A stretch of 28,474 nucleotides of DNA from a virus, in IMG/VR virus record IMGVR_UViG_3300034095_001209, positions 1-28,474 of that record; one strand, written 5' to 3'. This document shows, piece by piece, positions 8,984-27,756 of the stretch (position 1 is the first letter of the stretch; each line of letters starts with the position of its first letter). The notes beneath the pieces are model-generated. The model was not told the DNA's origin. It saw only the letters and a list, made by a program, of their open reading frames with translations, and ran no database searches. The translations under genes and the position numbers were made by a program.

Positions 8984-10102
8984 ATGAAAGTTAAATTAGA
9001 ATATGTTTGGTTGGATGGTTATACACCTGAACCAAATCTACGTAGCAAAGTCAAAGTATGTGATTTAGAATTAGTTTCAGTTGAAGTACTACCAGAATGG
9101 TCATTCGATGGGTCATCAACTAAACAAGCCGAAGGACATTTCTCTGACTGTATATTAAAACCTGTAAGAGTTTATGAAAATCCTTTGAATAATGGATATA
9201 TAGAATCTTATTTGGTTTTGTGTGAAGTCATGAATCCTGACGGAACACCACACTCAAGTAATACAAGAGCACTTGTTGGTGATGATAAACCTGACCTATG
9301 GTTTGGATACGAACAAGAGTACACTATCATGCAAACTGGAAGACCTTTGGGATTTCCTCACAACGGTTACCCTGAACCTCAAGGTAAATACTATTGTGGT
9401 GTTGGTAATGGACAAGTCAATGGACGTGAGTTTGTTGATAAACATATGGAGAACTGTATCGAGGCGGGTATAGAGATTACAGGTACAAATGCTGAAGTTC
9501 TTTTAGGTCAGTGGGAATACCAAGTATTCTCAAAAGGTAAATTAAAGGCTGGTGACGACCTGTGGATTTCAAGATACATTCTTCAACAAATGTCTGAAGA
9601 GTATGTTTATGATATTGAGTTACACCCAAAACCTGTAATGGGTGATTGGAATGGCTCAGGTCTACACTGTAACTTCTCAAATGACAAGATGAGAAACGAG
9701 GGTGGTGAAGAATACTTTAAAAATATTTTTAGAGCTTTTGATAGTCGTCATGATTTACACATTCAAAATTATGGTTCAGATAACAACTTACGTTTGACGG
9801 GTAAACATGAAACACAATCTATTGACAAGTTTAGTTGGGGAATATCTGATAGAGGTTCATCTATTCGTGTACCTTTATCAACAGCTAAAGAATGGAAAGG
9901 TTATATTGAAGACCGTCGTCCAGCATCTAACGGTGACCCATATAAGATTTGTAAAGTTATTAGTGAAACTTTAGATTATGCTGAACATCTTAACCACATC
10001 AAACATAATATGGAAGACAAGGATATCACAATACCTGTACTTATTGATAATATGGATTCTTTTGAAGAAAAATTAAGAGAAGAATATTCCAAAAGAGATT
10101 AA
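8984..10102 (+). CDS. glnA: Type II (eukaryote-like) glutamine synthetase, 372 aa
   Basis: The protein makes glutamine from glutamate, ammonia and ATP. It matches type II glutamine synthetases in length and motifs: LEYVWLDG, PEWSFDGSSTKQAEG, LVLCEV, WFGYEQEYT, NAEVLLGQWEYQV, GDWNGSGLHCNFS, NNLRLTGKHET, DRGSSIRVP and YIEDRRPASNGDPY. These cover the metal, ATP and glutamate sites, so it looks catalytically intact. Type II enzymes are found in eukaryotes and some bacteria, including Bacteroidetes. Carriage by a phage is unusual and suggests an auxiliary metabolic gene that supports nucleotide or protein synthesis. The stop overlaps the next ATG (TAATG), and the operon continues into thioredoxin and glutaredoxin. 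Confidence 0.95.
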   Translation: MKVKLEYVWLDGYTPEPNLRSKVKVCDLELVSVEVLPEWSFDGSSTKQAEGHFSDCILKPVRVYENPLNNGYIESYLVLCEVMNPDGTPHSSNTRALVGDDKPDLWFGYEQEYTIMQTGRPLGFPHNGYPEPQGKYYCGVGNGQVNGREFVDKHMENCIEAGIEITGTNAEVLLGQWEYQVFSKGKLKAGDDLWISRYILQQMSEEYVYDIELHPKPVMGDWNGSGLHCNFSNDKMRNEGGEEYFKNIFRAFDSRHDLHIQNYGSDNNLRLTGKHETQSIDKFSWGISDRGSSIRVPLSTAKEWKGYIEDRRPASNGDPYKICKVISETLDYAEHLNHIKHNMEDKDITIPVLIDNMDSFEEKLREEYSKRD

Positions 10103-20340: not shown

Positions 20341-20745
20341 ATGAAACAATTCAGAATTAACGAACAAGAAAAAAGTAGAATACTTGGTTTACACATCGAA
20401 GCCACGTCAAGACAATACCTAAAAGAAGATTTAAACAATGGTATGACTACTATTGAGAGATATAACTACAATAGGGGTATTCAGTGTTTCTTGAATAAGA
20501 AAAATGTAAAGGATGATGAAGGTAAATCACTAAAAATGGATGGGTCCATTGGTAATTTACCTAACTCTAAAAGTGCTCAAGCAGTTGCAAAATATCAGTC
20601 AATGATTAGGGTAACCCCCGATGGTGTTTGGGGTGAAGATACAATGGATGCGATGCCAGAAAAAGACAAAGTCATTTTCAAACAGTGTATGTCTGACTAC
20701 GGAGATTTATTTGATAAAATTGCACATTACTTCGGTTGGGACTGA
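20341..20745 (+). CDS. Peptidoglycan-binding-like protein with leader, 134 aa
   Basis: The leader MKQFRINEQEKSRILGLH is nearly the same type as in the gene at 19743 (NEQ-R-RI--L). The rest includes RGIQCFLNKKN, then SAQAVAKYQSMIRVTPDGVW and GEDTMDAM. This matches the helix-turn pattern of PG_binding_1 domains (V--FQ---GL--DG--G--T). It would bind cell-wall glycan and target a lytic or structural protein there. The ATG at 20341 is chosen over an alternative start two codons earlier. Its TGA overlaps the DHH-SET gene start, so the two are co-translated. Confidence 0.65.
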   Translation: MKQFRINEQEKSRILGLHIEATSRQYLKEDLNNGMTTIERYNYNRGIQCFLNKKNVKDDEGKSLKMDGSIGNLPNSKSAQAVAKYQSMIRVTPDGVWGEDTMDAMPEKDKVIFKQCMSDYGDLFDKIAHYFGWD

Positions 20746-22814
20746 TGAAGAAGTTAATTAAAGAATCGGGTCTACGTGACATTAACGCTTTGGCGAAAAG
20801 ATACCCAAAGGCAAAGATTTACTTCCACCAAGATTTGGATGGAGTAACAACTGCAATTGCCATGAGAGAATATTTGGAATCCAACGGTATTAAAGTTGTT
20901 GGTTCTGAGGTTATCCAATATGGTGATAAAGAGTTTGCTGTAAAGAAACAAGATGCGACTGGTGATACAATGCCTGTGTTGGTTGACTTCGCTCACGGTA
21001 AACCGATGTTTGTTATCCATACAGACCACCACGATACACAGACAGGTGTTGAAAAAGATACTTCAGTTTCATTCAAACCATCACGTTCAAATGTAGCTAC
21101 AATATCTCAGGTTGTTTCACCAAAAGAAATCTTCACACAAGATGATATCACTTTGATATCAACTGTGGATTCTGCAGACTTTGCAAAATACGGGTTGAAA
21201 CCAAAAGACATCATGAACTTTATCTTCAAGTTAGATAAAGACAAATCATTACAAAGTAATAAATTCGCTTTAGGGCTAGCAGCTAACAAATTATTATTAG
21301 CTTATAAGAACAAACCAGGTTTCTTAGAAGAGTTGGTTATGAATGCATCACCATCTTTGTTGAATATCTTACAGAACACTAAGAGAATTGCTCAAGAGAA
21401 AAACTATGCAACTCCTGAGATGATGAGTTCAAACCAAAAGAATTACATTCAGTCTCAACAGAACAGTTCACGAGTTCAGTTTGAAGACGGTATCATCGTT
21501 CAGTACGGTGGTGGGGCATTATCTAAGCCAGGTGCTTATGATAGATACGTTCCGTTTGAAAACTATCCCGATGCTGACTTTTTGGTTATTGCATGGCCAA
21601 TGGGATTGGTACAAGCGTCTTGTAATCCATTCAATAAAGAAAGACAACTCAAGGGTGTTAACTTGGGTGAGATTGCCGATGAGGTAATGTTGAAATGGAA
21701 AGGTCAGTTGGAAGATAAGATTATTCCTTTATCTACTATTAAGTGGGTATCTGAAACATCGGCTAAAGAAGGTTCTGTTGGATTTACAGATGCTGACCTT
21801 GAAGCATTCTACGGTGATAAGGTACGTGAGATTGAGAACGGTGAACAATACCTTTCATCAATCAAGAAGATAATGGCTAAACCATCAAAAGATTTAAAAG
21901 ATGAAGAGTGGTCTGTGTTGGATAGGTTTGGTGTTCCTGCTTGGGATATGATTGAAGCGAACTCAGGTGGACACAAATGTATTACAAACATTTCAGCACT
22001 TAACTACTTCGGAAGGGCTAAGAGACCAAATCAGGACCCTTATAGATATAACCCTGAAGCGGACGACGCACCATACGTTAAGTTTGTTAAGATGATTCAA
22101 AGAGAGTTTGTGAATAAACTCAAAGAAAAAATCAATGACCAATCTGGTAACATAACAGAAAATGTTGATGTTAAAAAATATTATGTTGATAGGAGTAATA
22201 TACAAGGTAGAGGTTCCTTTGCTAAAAATGATTTAGAAGAAAACGAAGTCATTGGTCTTTTACACACTATAAACAAACCTGGTGTTAGTTATGATTTTAC
22301 AGATTTAGGTAAAATGCACAACCATAGTGATAATCCAAACTGTCACAATGTTTTAAAAAAAAAACAAAGATTTTTAGTGGCCTCTCGACCAATAAAAAAA
22401 GGTGAGGAGCTGACGACCAACTATAGATTACAACCAGACTTAGAGCAACCTGAACATTTCAGAGTAAATAAGTCAAACAAAGAAAGAGAAATGTTACCAC
22501 ACATTGATGGTTACAGGTCTTATAGTCCATTCCAAGATTTAGAATATATTATCGTGAATGGTAATGGTATTGACTGTGATGATATAGTTCATGACTTAAT
22601 TTTGGTTGGTGACAATGGGGTTATTAAATATGGACCTAAAAATAGTGGGGCTCATTATTTGGATGATGCTAAAAAAGTTGTTGAATTACCACTTAGAGAT
22701 AATGAAGACCCAACTGAACTTTTTAGTAGTGAATCAAATATGATGAATTGGTTGAACAAGAAGTTAGATAAAGTTGACGTTAACTTCGAAATCAGAAGAA
22801 ACTTCTTCAATTAA
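20745..22814 (+). CDS. DHH phosphoesterase fused to a SET domain, 689 aa
   Basis: Residues 1-15 (MKKLIKESGLRDINA) form a leader with I-K-E. The DHH domain shows FHQDLDGVTTAIAM (D-x-D at about 28-30), VDFAHG and HTDHHD with His-Asp-His-His near 92-96, plus STVDSADF. These are the metal-binding motifs of RecJ/NrnA/oligoribonuclease-type enzymes, which cleave phosphodiester bonds. From about residue 472 a SET domain follows: GRGSFAKNDLEENEVIGLLH, MHNHSDNPNCHN, then ASRPIKKGEELTTNYR. This is the order of SET lysine methyltransferases, including the NHS and Y motifs. A C-terminal segment of about 120 residues is unassigned. The gene is coupled to the peptidoglycan-binding-like gene. Confidence 0.85.
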   Translation: MKKLIKESGLRDINALAKRYPKAKIYFHQDLDGVTTAIAMREYLESNGIKVVGSEVIQYGDKEFAVKKQDATGDTMPVLVDFAHGKPMFVIHTDHHDTQTGVEKDTSVSFKPSRSNVATISQVVSPKEIFTQDDITLISTVDSADFAKYGLKPKDIMNFIFKLDKDKSLQSNKFALGLAANKLLLAYKNKPGFLEELVMNASPSLLNILQNTKRIAQEKNYATPEMMSSNQKNYIQSQQNSSRVQFEDGIIVQYGGGALSKPGAYDRYVPFENYPDADFLVIAWPMGLVQASCNPFNKERQLKGVNLGEIADEVMLKWKGQLEDKIIPLSTIKWVSETSAKEGSVGFTDADLEAFYGDKVREIENGEQYLSSIKKIMAKPSKDLKDEEWSVLDRFGVPAWDMIEANSGGHKCITNISALNYFGRAKRPNQDPYRYNPEADDAPYVKFVKMIQREFVNKLKEKINDQSGNITENVDVKKYYVDRSNIQGRGSFAKNDLEENEVIGLLHTINKPGVSYDFTDLGKMHNHSDNPNCHNVLKKKQRFLVASRPIKKGEELTTNYRLQPDLEQPEHFRVNKSNKEREMLPHIDGYRSYSPFQDLEYIIVNGNGIDCDDIVHDLILVGDNGVIKYGPKNSGAHYLDDAKKVVELPLRDNEDPTELFSSESNMMNWLNKKLDKVDVNFEIRRNFFN

Positions 22815-22934: not shown

Positions 22935-22966
22935 TTTGACAATCTGAAAACGATGTCGTAAGTTTG
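22935..22966 (+). promoter_or_regulatory. Host-type promoter of the large non-coding RNA
   Basis: TTTG at 22935-22938 and TAAGTTTG at 22959-22966 are separated by 20 nt, a full Bacteroidetes primary-sigma promoter. Two TATTTAT boxes (22897-22904 and 22901-22908) lie upstream, so the second promoter class may also act here. The region 22815-22934 contains no gene. Confidence 0.75.
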
Positions 22967-22972
22967 TAAAAC

Positions 22973-23921
22973 AAATCAGAAACACGGAATCCAAATCTCA
23001 CTATCCGTAGTTATAGAGTAAGTTTCTGATACGTTCTTTGAAAATTAATGGTTGAGATATCAACTTGTTTTTTGGTGACTTGTCACCGTGACCCCTTTTC
23101 TTTTCAAGAAAAGTTGATATCAAAAACCTTCGGCGGTTTAGCGTCGTTAGATAACCTCAGTAATGAGACTAAAAGGATGGAACTTAGATTAGCCTCTAAG
23201 GGAAGTTCGCAGGACGAGAGTCTTGACAACTAAACAAAGTGACTACGGTTATTGCCCCAACGACAAGTGTTGAGGGGGAATAATCACTCCGAGTCCGTGG
23301 AATATCGGGGTTGAGGTGGTGACACCAATAGGAAAAGTCACAGGTGACGGTTCGACACTCCCTGCCATGGGTTGTAGAGCTGGGTACCAGTCTCAAGGGT
23401 TTCCGAGTCGTACAAAAAGAGATGACGAAGTCCTGACAGACCGTGAGCTGGCAGGTTCACAGGGTGGTGTGAAGCATTTTGTTCCCAAAAGGAACGGAAC
23501 TTCTCCCGAAGCACATCGTCCATTTATCCACAAGAGCTAACTTTATATGAAAATAAAGACAAAGCACAAGTTCTTCGGGCGTTGAAACTGAAAGGTGTCT
23601 AACACTTCAGGTCATCGGACTAATGGAGTCATAGGCGGACCGCAAGTCCTCTTATGTTAATCACGAAATACCTCGTGGGACGGCCATCCCTTAGTGAGCT
23701 CGCAAGGCTTAAGAGAGTAGAGTAACGGTTGAGTTGGTTTTAACGAAAAGAGTGGTGAACTTAAATTACCGACACTGACTCGATACTACGGGCAATCGTA
23801 GTGGACAATGTGAGGAACCAATATCTGGATAATCTCACGAAAGACGGGTCTTCAAAACGTGTAGTCTCAACGTATTTACACCTTCCTTAACCTCAGTCCA
23901 AAAATACTGAGGTTTTTTTTT
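22973..23921 (+). ncRNA. Giant structured non-coding RNA of about 950 nt
   Basis: Between a consensus promoter and a strong terminator there is no convincing reading frame; the base composition is richer in G and C than the flanks, and hairpins are everywhere. Stems seen by eye: 22975-22983 with 23022-23030 (9 bp) enclosing 22984-22988 with 23004-23008; GATATCAACTT near 23054 with AAGTTGATATC near 23113, enclosing a GGTGA/TCACC hairpin; CTCA-GTAA-TGAG and AGGAC-GAGA-GTCTT with GNRA loops; CTTAGA/TCTAAG; GTTCC/GGAAC; CTTTAT/ATAAAG; ACTACG/CGTAGT. Size, ornate folding and phage location resemble the GOLLD and ROOL classes, but I cannot confirm membership. No group I, group II, RNase P or tmRNA signature was recognised. 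Confidence 0.8.
23891..23921 (+). terminator. Terminator of the large non-coding RNA
   Basis: CCTCAGT and ACTGAGG form a 7-bp stem (9 bp with flanking AA/TT), with an 8-nt loop, followed by nine T residues. Confidence 0.95.
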
Positions 23922-23929
23922 GCTCTTAT

Positions 23930-23960
23930 TTTGGTGGTACGGAAAATATTTGTATATTTG
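23930..23960 (+). promoter_or_regulatory. Host-type promoter, near-leaderless
   Basis: TTTG at 23930-23933, a 19-nt spacer and TATATTTG at 23953-23960 match the Bacteroidetes consensus. The ATG at 23968 is only 7 nt downstream. Confidence 0.8.
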
Positions 23961-23967
23961 TACCACA

Positions 23968-24225
23968 ATGAAGACAGTTAAAATTATCCATCCAAAGTTC
24001 GGCGAGATTCTAAACGAGGAATACCAAGATGCAGTTCAGCACAAGATTTTCTTGACTATGATTCATTCATGTTTGGAATTGAAGCAAGATTTGACAACTT
24101 TCAACGGACGTGATTTCTTGATGCACGTTCCATTTGAAATTCTTCGTCAGAGTCTAATTCTTGGTAACGTTGAAACAGTTACACTTGGTGAATATGCTAC
24201 AATTAAATCCAAGATGGAAGGTTGA
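23968..24225 (+). CDS. Unknown small phage protein, 85 aa
   Basis: The gene follows a consensus host-type promoter by 7 nt. The product begins MKTVKIIHPKFGEILNEEYQ and continues as a helical protein (FLTMIHSCLELKQDL, FEILRQSLILGN). There are no recognised motifs, signal peptide or membrane span. The ATG at 23968 is used because longer frames would run into the promoter and terminator of the large RNA. Confidence 0.7.
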   Translation: MKTVKIIHPKFGEILNEEYQDAVQHKIFLTMIHSCLELKQDLTTFNGRDFLMHVPFEILRQSLILGNVETVTLGEYATIKSKMEG

Positions 24226-25362: not shown

Positions 25363-25566
25363 ATGAATACTATAATCTTTAACACCAAACAACACACCCT
25401 AACCCTTGAATTGGTAAGTGGTACCAAAAAGTCTTACAAAGATGTAATGACTGTTAAATTAATTGATGGAATCTATGAGATATTCCAAAAACAAAGAGAC
25501 GGTTTAAATGCTCCGATAATTAGAATTCCTTCAAATAATACTATTGTATTCTACGAACATGAATAA
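25363..25566 (+). CDS. Unknown small strand-rich protein, 67 aa
   Basis: From ATG 25363 the product alternates strands and turns (TIIFNTKQHTLTLELVSGTK, VKLIDGIYEIFQKQ, PIIRIPSNNTIVFYEHE). This suggests a small beta-rich fold. No family is recognised. The last 8 nt overlap the thymidylate synthase start, which implies co-expression. Confidence 0.6.
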   Translation: MNTIIFNTKQHTLTLELVSGTKKSYKDVMTVKLIDGIYEIFQKQRDGLNAPIIRIPSNNTIVFYEHE

Positions 25567-26845
25567 TTTAGATAAATCATATCAATCACTCCTACAAGAC
25601 ATTATAGATAATGGAGTGGAAAAAAAGGACAGGACAGGTACTGGAACAATTTCTGTATTTGGAAGACAAATTCGCCACAAAATGAGTGATGGATTCCCAT
25701 TACTTACAACCAAGAAAATGGCATTTAAAACTATGGTAACTGAGCTGTTGTGGTTCCTTCGTGGTGATACAAACATTAAGTTCCTTGTTGAAAATGGTTG
25801 TCATATTTGGGATGGTGATGCGTATAAGAATTACATAAACAAACTTATTTTTAATGAAAAAGATTGTCATGTTGATGATTTAATAAACCAACCGAATAAG
25901 ACGTTTGTTCCATATTCACAAGAAGAATTCATCAACAAAATCAAAACAGATGACGAGTTTGCTAAGAAGTGGGGTGAGTTAGGTCCAATTTATGGTAAGC
26001 AATGGAGAAGTTGGACTAAAAAGAAAATGTATTTATCAACAGATGGTTCATATGAAAATATCTATGATGAGGCAGACCAAATGGTTATTGACCAAATATC
26101 AATCTTAATCAACGACCTTAAAACAAATCCTGACTCAAGGAGAATGATGGTTAACGCTTGGAATGTAGGTGAATTAGACCAAATGGTTCTTCCACCCTGT
26201 CATTATGGATTTCAAGTTTATACAAGAGAGTTGAGTGATGAGGAAAGACTTAATTGGATGAAGAACAATAAATCCAATGTAGTTTTACCAATGAGAGACT
26301 TTAATGTTGAATTTAGTATGGATGAATGGTTTAGACCCTATGGTGTACCTAAACGAGCAATCTCTTTAATGTTTAATATGAGGTCAAATGATGTCCCATT
26401 GGGTTTGCCATTTAATATTGCATCATACGCGCTTCTTTTAGAGATTATTGGTAAAATTGTAAATATGGTTCCAGATGAATTAATTGGTAATTTAGGTGAT
26501 TGCCACATATACCTCAATCAAATTGAAGGTGTTAAGGAACAAATTGGTAGACCTTATACGCCAGAAGAAAGACATGAATTGTTAAAAACCGCCATGGGAA
26601 ATTTTTACCAAACAGCAGTTGATGAACAAGTTCCTTTTGGTGGTGGATTGAGTGAATACTATGAATCATACAAAATACCATACCACTCGAGAGAACCTTT
26701 CGAATTACCAAAATTAAAATTACCAAAAACTGACGCATTTTGGAAAGGATTTGATGTTAGTTTGTTTGGTCATTTAGAACCATCGGATTTTAAGATTGAT
26801 GGATACAAAAGTCACTCATCAATAAAAATGCCACTTTCAAATTAA
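25559..26845 (+). CDS. thyA: Thymidylate synthase (ThyA type), expanded, 428 aa
   Basis: The enzyme converts dUMP to dTMP with methylenetetrahydrofolate. The N-terminal KDRTGTGTISVFGRQIRHKM, GPIYGKQWRSW, the catalytic LPPCHYGFQVY (Cys214), RSNDVPLGLPFNIASYALLL and GNLGDCHIYLNQ are all intact. Canonical ThyA is about 264 residues. Here extra segments lie at about 92-140, 226-265 and before the end, so it is an expanded version. The last 13 residues (YKSHSSIKMPLSN) are a variant of the usual ThyA ending and are repeated at the end of the adjacent homing endonuclease. It fits the nucleotide-supply role of the phage redox genes. Confidence 0.95.
   Translation: MNNLDKSYQSLLQDIIDNGVEKKDRTGTGTISVFGRQIRHKMSDGFPLLTTKKMAFKTMVTELLWFLRGDTNIKFLVENGCHIWDGDAYKNYINKLIFNEKDCHVDDLINQPNKTFVPYSQEEFINKIKTDDEFAKKWGELGPIYGKQWRSWTKKKMYLSTDGSYENIYDEADQMVIDQISILINDLKTNPDSRRMMVNAWNVGELDQMVLPPCHYGFQVYTRELSDEERLNWMKNNKSNVVLPMRDFNVEFSMDEWFRPYGVPKRAISLMFNMRSNDVPLGLPFNIASYALLLEIIGKIVNMVPDELIGNLGDCHIYLNQIEGVKEQIGRPYTPEERHELLKTAMGNFYQTAVDEQVPFGGGLSEYYESYKIPYHSREPFELPKLKLPKTDAFWKGFDVSLFGHLEPSDFKIDGYKSHSSIKMPLSN
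26804..26845 (+). repeat. thyA tail, duplicated at the end of the GIY-YIG gene
   Basis: These 14 codons (YKSHSSIKMPLSN and stop) correspond to the last 14 codons of the endonuclease at 27715-27756 (YKSHPSIKAPLSN and stop). Ten of 13 residues or more match, while several serine and leucine codons differ completely (AGT against TCA, CTT against TTA). Confidence 0.85.
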
Positions 26846-26864
26846 CTTTTCTTAAAATTACAGA

Positions 26865-26872
26865 TATTTATA
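26865..26872 (+). promoter_or_regulatory. TATTTATA box before the GIY-YIG gene
   Basis: GATATTTATATTAAAGGG lies 29 nt before the ATG at 26902. It would let the endonuclease be read separately from thyA. Confidence 0.45.
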
Positions 26873-26901
26873 TTAAAGGGTAAACCTTAAAGTAAATCAA
26901 T

Positions 26902-27756
26902 ATGAAGAAGTTTTTAGTGTATGAAATCAAAAACAATATAAACGGTAAATCTTATATCGGACAATATAGTGGATTATTATTTGATAAATATTTTGGGAGT
27001 GGAAAGTTGATTAAGTTGGCAATAAAAAAATACGGATTAGAAAATTTCTCTAAAACTATTTTAGAAGAGTGTTCTAATAAAGACGAGTTGAATGAAAAAG
27101 AAATTTTTTGGATTAATAAACTCAAAACAATTGAAAACGGTTATAATTTAACAGAAGGTGGTACAGGTGGAGACCTATCTGAATTTATTAAGTATGATGA
27201 GAATTGGGTTGAAAACCAAAGACGCTCAACAAAAAAGTATTGGGACAATATAAGTGATGATGAAAGAAAAATAAGAAGTGAAAATGTGTCTGGTGAGAAA
27301 AATGGAATGCATGGTAAAGACGGATTTTGGAAGGGTAAAAAAATGCATAAAGAAATAGTTAAAAAGCAATTAGATAATAGAAGAAGTTATAATAAAGAAC
27401 AGAACCCAAATTGGAAAGGGGGTTTAACTTACATCTATTGTGAATGTGGTAAAAGAATAGGTTACGGTCACACTCATTGTAACAAATGTAGACCTAGAAC
27501 TGAAAATAATAACCCATTTTTTGGTAAACAACATTCGGAAGAAACTAAAAAAATATTAAGTGAGAAAAGAAAAGGTAAAAAACCAACTAATATGACACAA
27601 GTCCAAATTGATGATATTGTTTATGAGAGTTTGGCGGAAGCCTCAAGACAAACAGGTATTCTATCATCAACCATTTTATGGAGATTAAAATCCAAAAATT
27701 CAAAATACGAAAACTATAAATCACACCCATCAATTAAAGCACCATTAAGTAATTAA
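26902..27756 (+). CDS. GIY-YIG homing endonuclease with NUMOD repeats and a thyA-like tail, 284 aa
   Basis: The nuclease domain has VYEIKNNINGKSYIGQ (Y-I-G at 18-20), a conserved EIFWINKL helix and GYNLTEGGTGG. Two NUMOD3-like motifs follow (GEKNGMHGKDGFWKG; NPFFGKQHSEETKKILSEKR). Between them lies a four-cysteine cluster (C180, C182, C193, C196), and a NUMOD1-like DNA-binding helix follows (VYESLAEASRQTGILSSTIL). This is the build of phage homing endonucleases that cut a specific site and spread by repair. The last 13 residues copy the ThyA C-terminus (YKSHPSIKAPLSN). It sits directly after thyA, its probable target. Confidence 0.92.
   Translation: MKKFLVYEIKNNINGKSYIGQYSGLLFDKYFGSGKLIKLAIKKYGLENFSKTILEECSNKDELNEKEIFWINKLKTIENGYNLTEGGTGGDLSEFIKYDENWVENQRRSTKKYWDNISDDERKIRSENVSGEKNGMHGKDGFWKGKKMHKEIVKKQLDNRRSYNKEQNPNWKGGLTYIYCECGKRIGYGHTHCNKCRPRTENNNPFFGKQHSEETKKILSEKRKGKKPTNMTQVQIDDIVYESLAEASRQTGILSSTILWRLKSKNSKYENYKSHPSIKAPLSN
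27715..27756 (+). repeat. Second copy of the thyA tail, at the end of the endonuclease gene
   Basis: The HPSIKAPL ending here is closer to the general ThyA consensus (HP-IKAP) than the one on thyA itself, which suggests that this copy is the displaced original tail. Confidence 0.8.

Follow-up and report, generated by a model that had tools for sequence, protein, structure and literature searches.

A new GOLLD RNA with its own predicted promoter and terminator in a large uncultured phage, probably of Bacteroidota

The window, as we call the whole stretch of 28,474 nt (28.5 kb) analysed here, is of phage origin, as indicated by its source in an IMG/VR virus record, by phage-type genes nearby and by relatives that are viral contigs. 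Among its other genes are those for a DnaJ-like protein (1977–2957) and a glutamine synthetase-like protein (8984–10102; 372 aa, with a partial match to the catalytic domain). An uninterrupted thymidylate synthase gene, followed directly by a gene for an I-TevI-like GIY-YIG homing endonuclease, occupies 25544–27756; phage T4 carries its I-TevI gene within a thymidylate synthase intron. The segment of interest comprises the following features:

20736–22814, + strand: upstream DHH-SET gene (692 aa), a syntenic neighbour outside the RNA (Pfam SET, E 5e-10; DHH, E 1e-4, below cutoff)
22935–22966, + strand: Bacteroidota-type promoter TTTG-N20-TAAGTTTG (TTTG at 22935–22938, 20 nt, TAAGTTTG at 22959–22966)
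22972–23919, + strand: predicted GOLLD RNA of about 950 nt, its start placed from the promoter and its end from the terminator
22975–23030, + strand: optional 5′-terminal hairpin module, TCAGAAAC...CCGTAGTT...GTTTCTGA
23054–23131, + strand: variable 5′ stem-loop GATATCAACTT/AAGTTGATATC, from the alignment
23132–23461, + strand: core of the GOLLD 5′ domain, common to tRNA-Met-linked GOLLDs
23462–23873, + strand: GOLLD 3′ domain, a full-length match to RF02032
23889–23919, + strand: intrinsic terminator, AACCTCAGT-loop-ACTGAGGTT, a 9-bp hairpin followed by T9

The initial annotation had proposed that the RNA follows the DHH-SET gene in a transcription unit of its own, with a full promoter and, at the other end, a 9-bp hairpin with nine T residues. 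The RNA does follow that gene, and promoter and terminator are both present in the sequence and conserved among relatives. A single promoter copy would be weak evidence alone, since the window holds four copies of the motif against 1.15 expected. Of 42 non-redundant relatives, 38 have TTG-N18–22-TAnnTTTG, the promoter type of Bacteroidota, upstream of the GOLLD 5′ core, compared with 39 of 1768 random 310-nt stretches from the same contigs (2.2%), and 36/43 relatives have a hairpin with a T-run within 110 nt. Given the type of promoter, the host of this group of large uncultured phages is probably a member of the Bacteroidota. A second perfect promoter of this type (TTTG-N19-TATATTTG) is located at 23930–23960, just 3′ of the terminator and near the start of an open reading frame at 23920–24225.

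We searched the window against Rfam 15 using cmscan, and the sole above-threshold match in the entire 28.5 kb was to GOLLD (RF02032) at 23462–23873, with 303.4 bits (cutoff 150), an E-value of 3.1e-86 and coverage of model positions 1–416. A permissive scan, up to E 0.5, returned neither ROOL nor any other large RNA, and weak matches in the leader to mir-361 and mcrA, on the opposite strand and below their own cutoffs, were dismissed as chance. The initial annotation had proposed a structured RNA of about 950 nt, with GOLLD and ROOL as the known phage classes of that size, and left the choice between these and a new class undecided; the end-to-end match to RF02032 settles it as GOLLD. Segment 22972–23919 is almost certainly a GOLLD RNA by sequence, and the window RNA adds a new and otherwise typical member to a class whose identity was already known. 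That it should instead be ROOL, OLE or an undescribed class of large RNA has next to no probability: its size and phage setting would suit ROOL too, and no Rfam family matches its 5′ half, but GOLLD alone matches, and across the whole model, while in every contig that is long enough the 5′ half leads on to a GOLLD 3′ domain. The 5′ region of published GOLLD RNAs is, moreover, less conserved (PMC12286853), which would explain why the 5′ domain is missing from Rfam. We therefore rejected this alternative. Because the Rfam model is confined to the 3′ domain, with its 416 positions, the 5′ half was tested separately.

Relatives were gathered by two independent routes, through the upstream DHH-SET gene and through RNA motifs. 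In the IMG/VR records examined first, reached by one or other of these routes, GOLLD scored above cutoff in 44 of 81 and gave any match in 46, always as a single copy. A profile of the 5′ core (23132–23461) matched 197 loci, 175 of which also have the GOLLD 3′ domain, starting 1–4 nt past the 5′ core where both matches are complete; the remaining 22 all end at the 5′ core. The 5′ core is, consequently, an integral part of the RNA, and the window RNA shows the GOLLD arrangement in which a structured 5′ domain of some 400 nt immediately precedes the 3′ domain. Some 26 loci match GOLLD in the 3′ domain and give no match to the 5′ profile of the window; two of them start at the 3′ domain, and the others appear to carry divergent 5′ domains, consistent with PMC12286853. 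Bacterial genome contigs gave 27 pattern matches, none recognised as GOLLD by the DNA profile save a weak one (L228) that found no confirmation in the Rfam search, and annotated phage records had no DNA-level match to the RNA or to the window. GOLLD RNAs were also seen in two very large uncultured phage genomes, L293 (LR745206, 635 kb) and L294 (LR756502, 642 kb); in the former, a tRNA-Met lies shortly 5′ of GOLLD and ARAGORN reported odd tRNA-like genes nearby. GOLLD is now placed in phage genomes of up to 642 kb. With both the 5′ core and the 3′ domain complete at over 160 loci, of which 44 are distinct, the lineage allows long-range contacts to be read by covariation.

Covariation was assessed in an alignment of 44 non-redundant sequences from these loci (mean identity 72%) by a G-test with average-product correction, against a null in which substitutions are redistributed over the phylogeny. 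It was positive in both halves of the RNA: of the predicted pairs, 18 of 95 reach significance in the 5′ domain and 24 of 118 in the 3′ domain, compared with 0–2 of about 200 in slid controls, in which pairing drops from ~97% to 33–42%. As the structure tested was derived from the same alignment, the percent-paired figures lean towards it, with the significance counts less affected. A stricter test over all column pairs left five significant ones, every one fully base-paired. The folding energy of 22972–23919 (z = −2.4; none of 20 dinucleotide shuffles as stable) gives modest support by itself, and the comparative evidence is decisive. The alignment defines these elements of the RNA:

23297–23301, + strand: 5′-domain loop GUGGA, pairing with UCCAC (23527–23531) at the linker flank, a contact between the two domains
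23362–23367, + strand: loop CUGCCA in the 5′ domain, kissing partner of 23449–23454, from covariation
23449–23454, + strand: loop UGGCAG, partner of 23362–23367, from covariation
23505–23579, + strand: helix CCCGAA/UUCGGG (23505–23510 with 23574–23579) enclosing the variable linker, from covariation
23682–23685, + strand: loop with the self-complementary core GGCC, a candidate for a symmetric kissing contact between half-shells
23702–23703, + strand: self-complementary dinucleotide GC in loop CGCAA

In the six-pair loop–loop helix formed by 23362–23367 and 23449–23454, the three central positions that vary are paired in 44/44 sequences through compensatory changes (TA/CG/GC, GC/CG and CG/TA). 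Two central covarying positions of the contact between 23297–23301 and 23527–23531 are paired in all sequences, as are all six positions of the helix around the linker (44/44, with compensatory changes). These pairings lie outside the nested structure, as does a further covarying one, 23803–23806 with 23864–23867. Among the self-complementary loops, GGCC at 23682–23685 is kept in 33/44 sequences and reads AGCU in L173, while GC at 23702–23703 becomes CG in L147 and L151; a GC/CG switch has been published for the symmetric kissing loop of GOLLD bridge B8 (PMC12286853). Position and pattern make these two loops candidates for bridges B8/B9, and their self-complementarity suggests that the half-shell interfaces are conserved in this GOLLD lineage.

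The same set of relatives bears on whether the region could be a protein-coding or decayed gene that merely looks structured. Open reading frames of 61–74 aa do occur inside it; however, they are unconserved, with the frame through 23316–23540 open in only 3 of 44 relatives and that through 23462–23873 in none of the 44, and indel lengths among relatives are not multiples of three. These findings, together with the covariation and the Rfam match, leave a coding origin with a negligible probability, and we rejected it. The description of about 950 nt lacking a convincing reading frame was accordingly borne out, the conserved reading frame that would have contradicted it having been sought in the 44 relatives and not found.

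Of the perfect stems singled out in that description, both exist, and they differ in conservation. The 9-bp stem 22975–22983/23022–23030 is conserved, with a compensatory A-U to G-C change in L206, as part of a 54-nt module common to the distant GOLLDs L148 (11800–11854), L206 (9853–9907) and L151 (2496–2549). In nearer relatives, and in most, this module is replaced by a short hairpin of 5–7 bp, often with a GAAA loop, or by nothing. Since distant members share the module while closer ones have short hairpins or nothing, the 5′ end appears to be exchangeable, a minor novelty. The GATATCAACTT/AAGTTGATATC stem was seen only in L155 among the relatives inspected and hence is a local elaboration.

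The upstream gene at 20736–22814 encodes a DHH-family-like N-terminal region fused to a SET domain; in many relatives the match stops near residue 475, so that these may lack the SET part or have another in its place. One could envisage that the RNA and this DHH(-SET) protein form one functional module, for instance an RNA cage holding nucleic acid for a DHH phosphoesterase. In every contig anchored on the DHH gene that continues for more than 2.7 kb beyond it there is a GOLLD on the same strand, its 3′ domain starting 0.65–3.8 kb downstream, and most GOLLDs found by the protein-independent pattern have DHH upstream. On the other hand, DHH is absent from large contigs with the same GOLLD type (L181, 129 kb; L183, 165 kb; L148, 117 kb; L182, 92 kb), and in the 635-kb LR745206 and the 642-kb LR756502 a distance of more than 300 kb separates GOLLD from the DHH relative. 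These DHH-less contigs and unlinked megaphage copies rule out an obligatory pair, and we take the linkage to reflect synteny within a single lineage, which accounts for the remaining cases; the RNA is preceded by a promoter of its own. A functional module with the DHH protein is therefore very unlikely, and it is equally doubtful that the exchangeable 5′ module could serve as an address or cargo tag on a GOLLD cage functionally tied to that protein. For this lineage, the usual genomic neighbour of GOLLD is now testable. As to tRNA genes, near which GOLLD is often but not obligatorily found, none was detected in the 28.5-kb window; a tRNA-Met lies shortly 5′ of GOLLD in L148, L182 and L190–L192, as in LR745206.

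The sequences show membership in GOLLD, covariation in a 5′ domain that runs on into the 3′ domain, promoter and terminator signals kept across the lineage, and conserved loop contacts. The best explanation overall, which we hold with good confidence, is that the locus specifies a GOLLD RNA and belongs to a large uncultured phage, probably one with a host among the Bacteroidota. GOLLD env-38 forms a hollow RNA cage of 14 copies, as determined by cryo-EM, in which the variable linker is in the interior (PMC12286853). By analogy, host RNA polymerase would make the ~950-nt RNA from its own promoter during infection, the 5′ domain would cap the cage, the 3′ domain would make up a ring (PMC12286853), and 14 copies would close into a hollow shell with the short linker facing inward. 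In the literature consulted, cage assembly has been solved for env-38 only, but formation of a 14-mer of the published type by the window RNA during infection seems quite likely. It is improbable, in comparison, that the RNA acts mainly as a monomer or regulator (antisense, sponge or ribosome-binding) with the cage being incidental. Pull-downs have reportedly shown ribosomes bound to GOLLD, according to PMC12286853, which cites earlier work, and phage long RNAs have been suggested as regulators of expression (PMC9241854); against this, the published GOLLD multimer is stable at nanomolar concentrations (PMC12286853), and the self-complementary loops are conserved, which suggests selection for homomeric contacts. 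For the cage reading, one could speculate that the shell serves in the lytic cycle to sequester a macromolecule of phage or host, for example a tRNA or a ribosomal particle, but any sequestering role is at present unlikely and speculative. GOLLD of a Lactobacillus brevis prophage accumulated in lytic growth and was dispensable for phage production, as related in PMC7567579 (citing Harris and Breaker, 2018), and so its role may be conditional.

Compared with known systems, the window RNA shares with GOLLD as defined by RF02032 the full-length 3′ domain match, the phage genome, the architecture of 5′ and 3′ domains and the short variable linker; it differs in that Rfam models the 3′ domain only and in the absence of the tRNAs that GOLLD is often near. 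It resembles ROOL as a large phage RNA, ROOL being an octameric cage, but has no sequence or structure match to it. GOLLD env-38 was compared by its published description. Relatives with the window-type 5′ domain (L148, L182 and L190) have a tRNA-Met upstream, as described for env-38 (PMC12286853), and domains of about 425 + 408 nt versus 420 + 413 nt in env-38. The window RNA lacks the upstream tRNA and, because of extra 5′ stem-loops, is longer (about 950 versus 833 nt), but it keeps the self-complementary cores of the candidate kissing loops.
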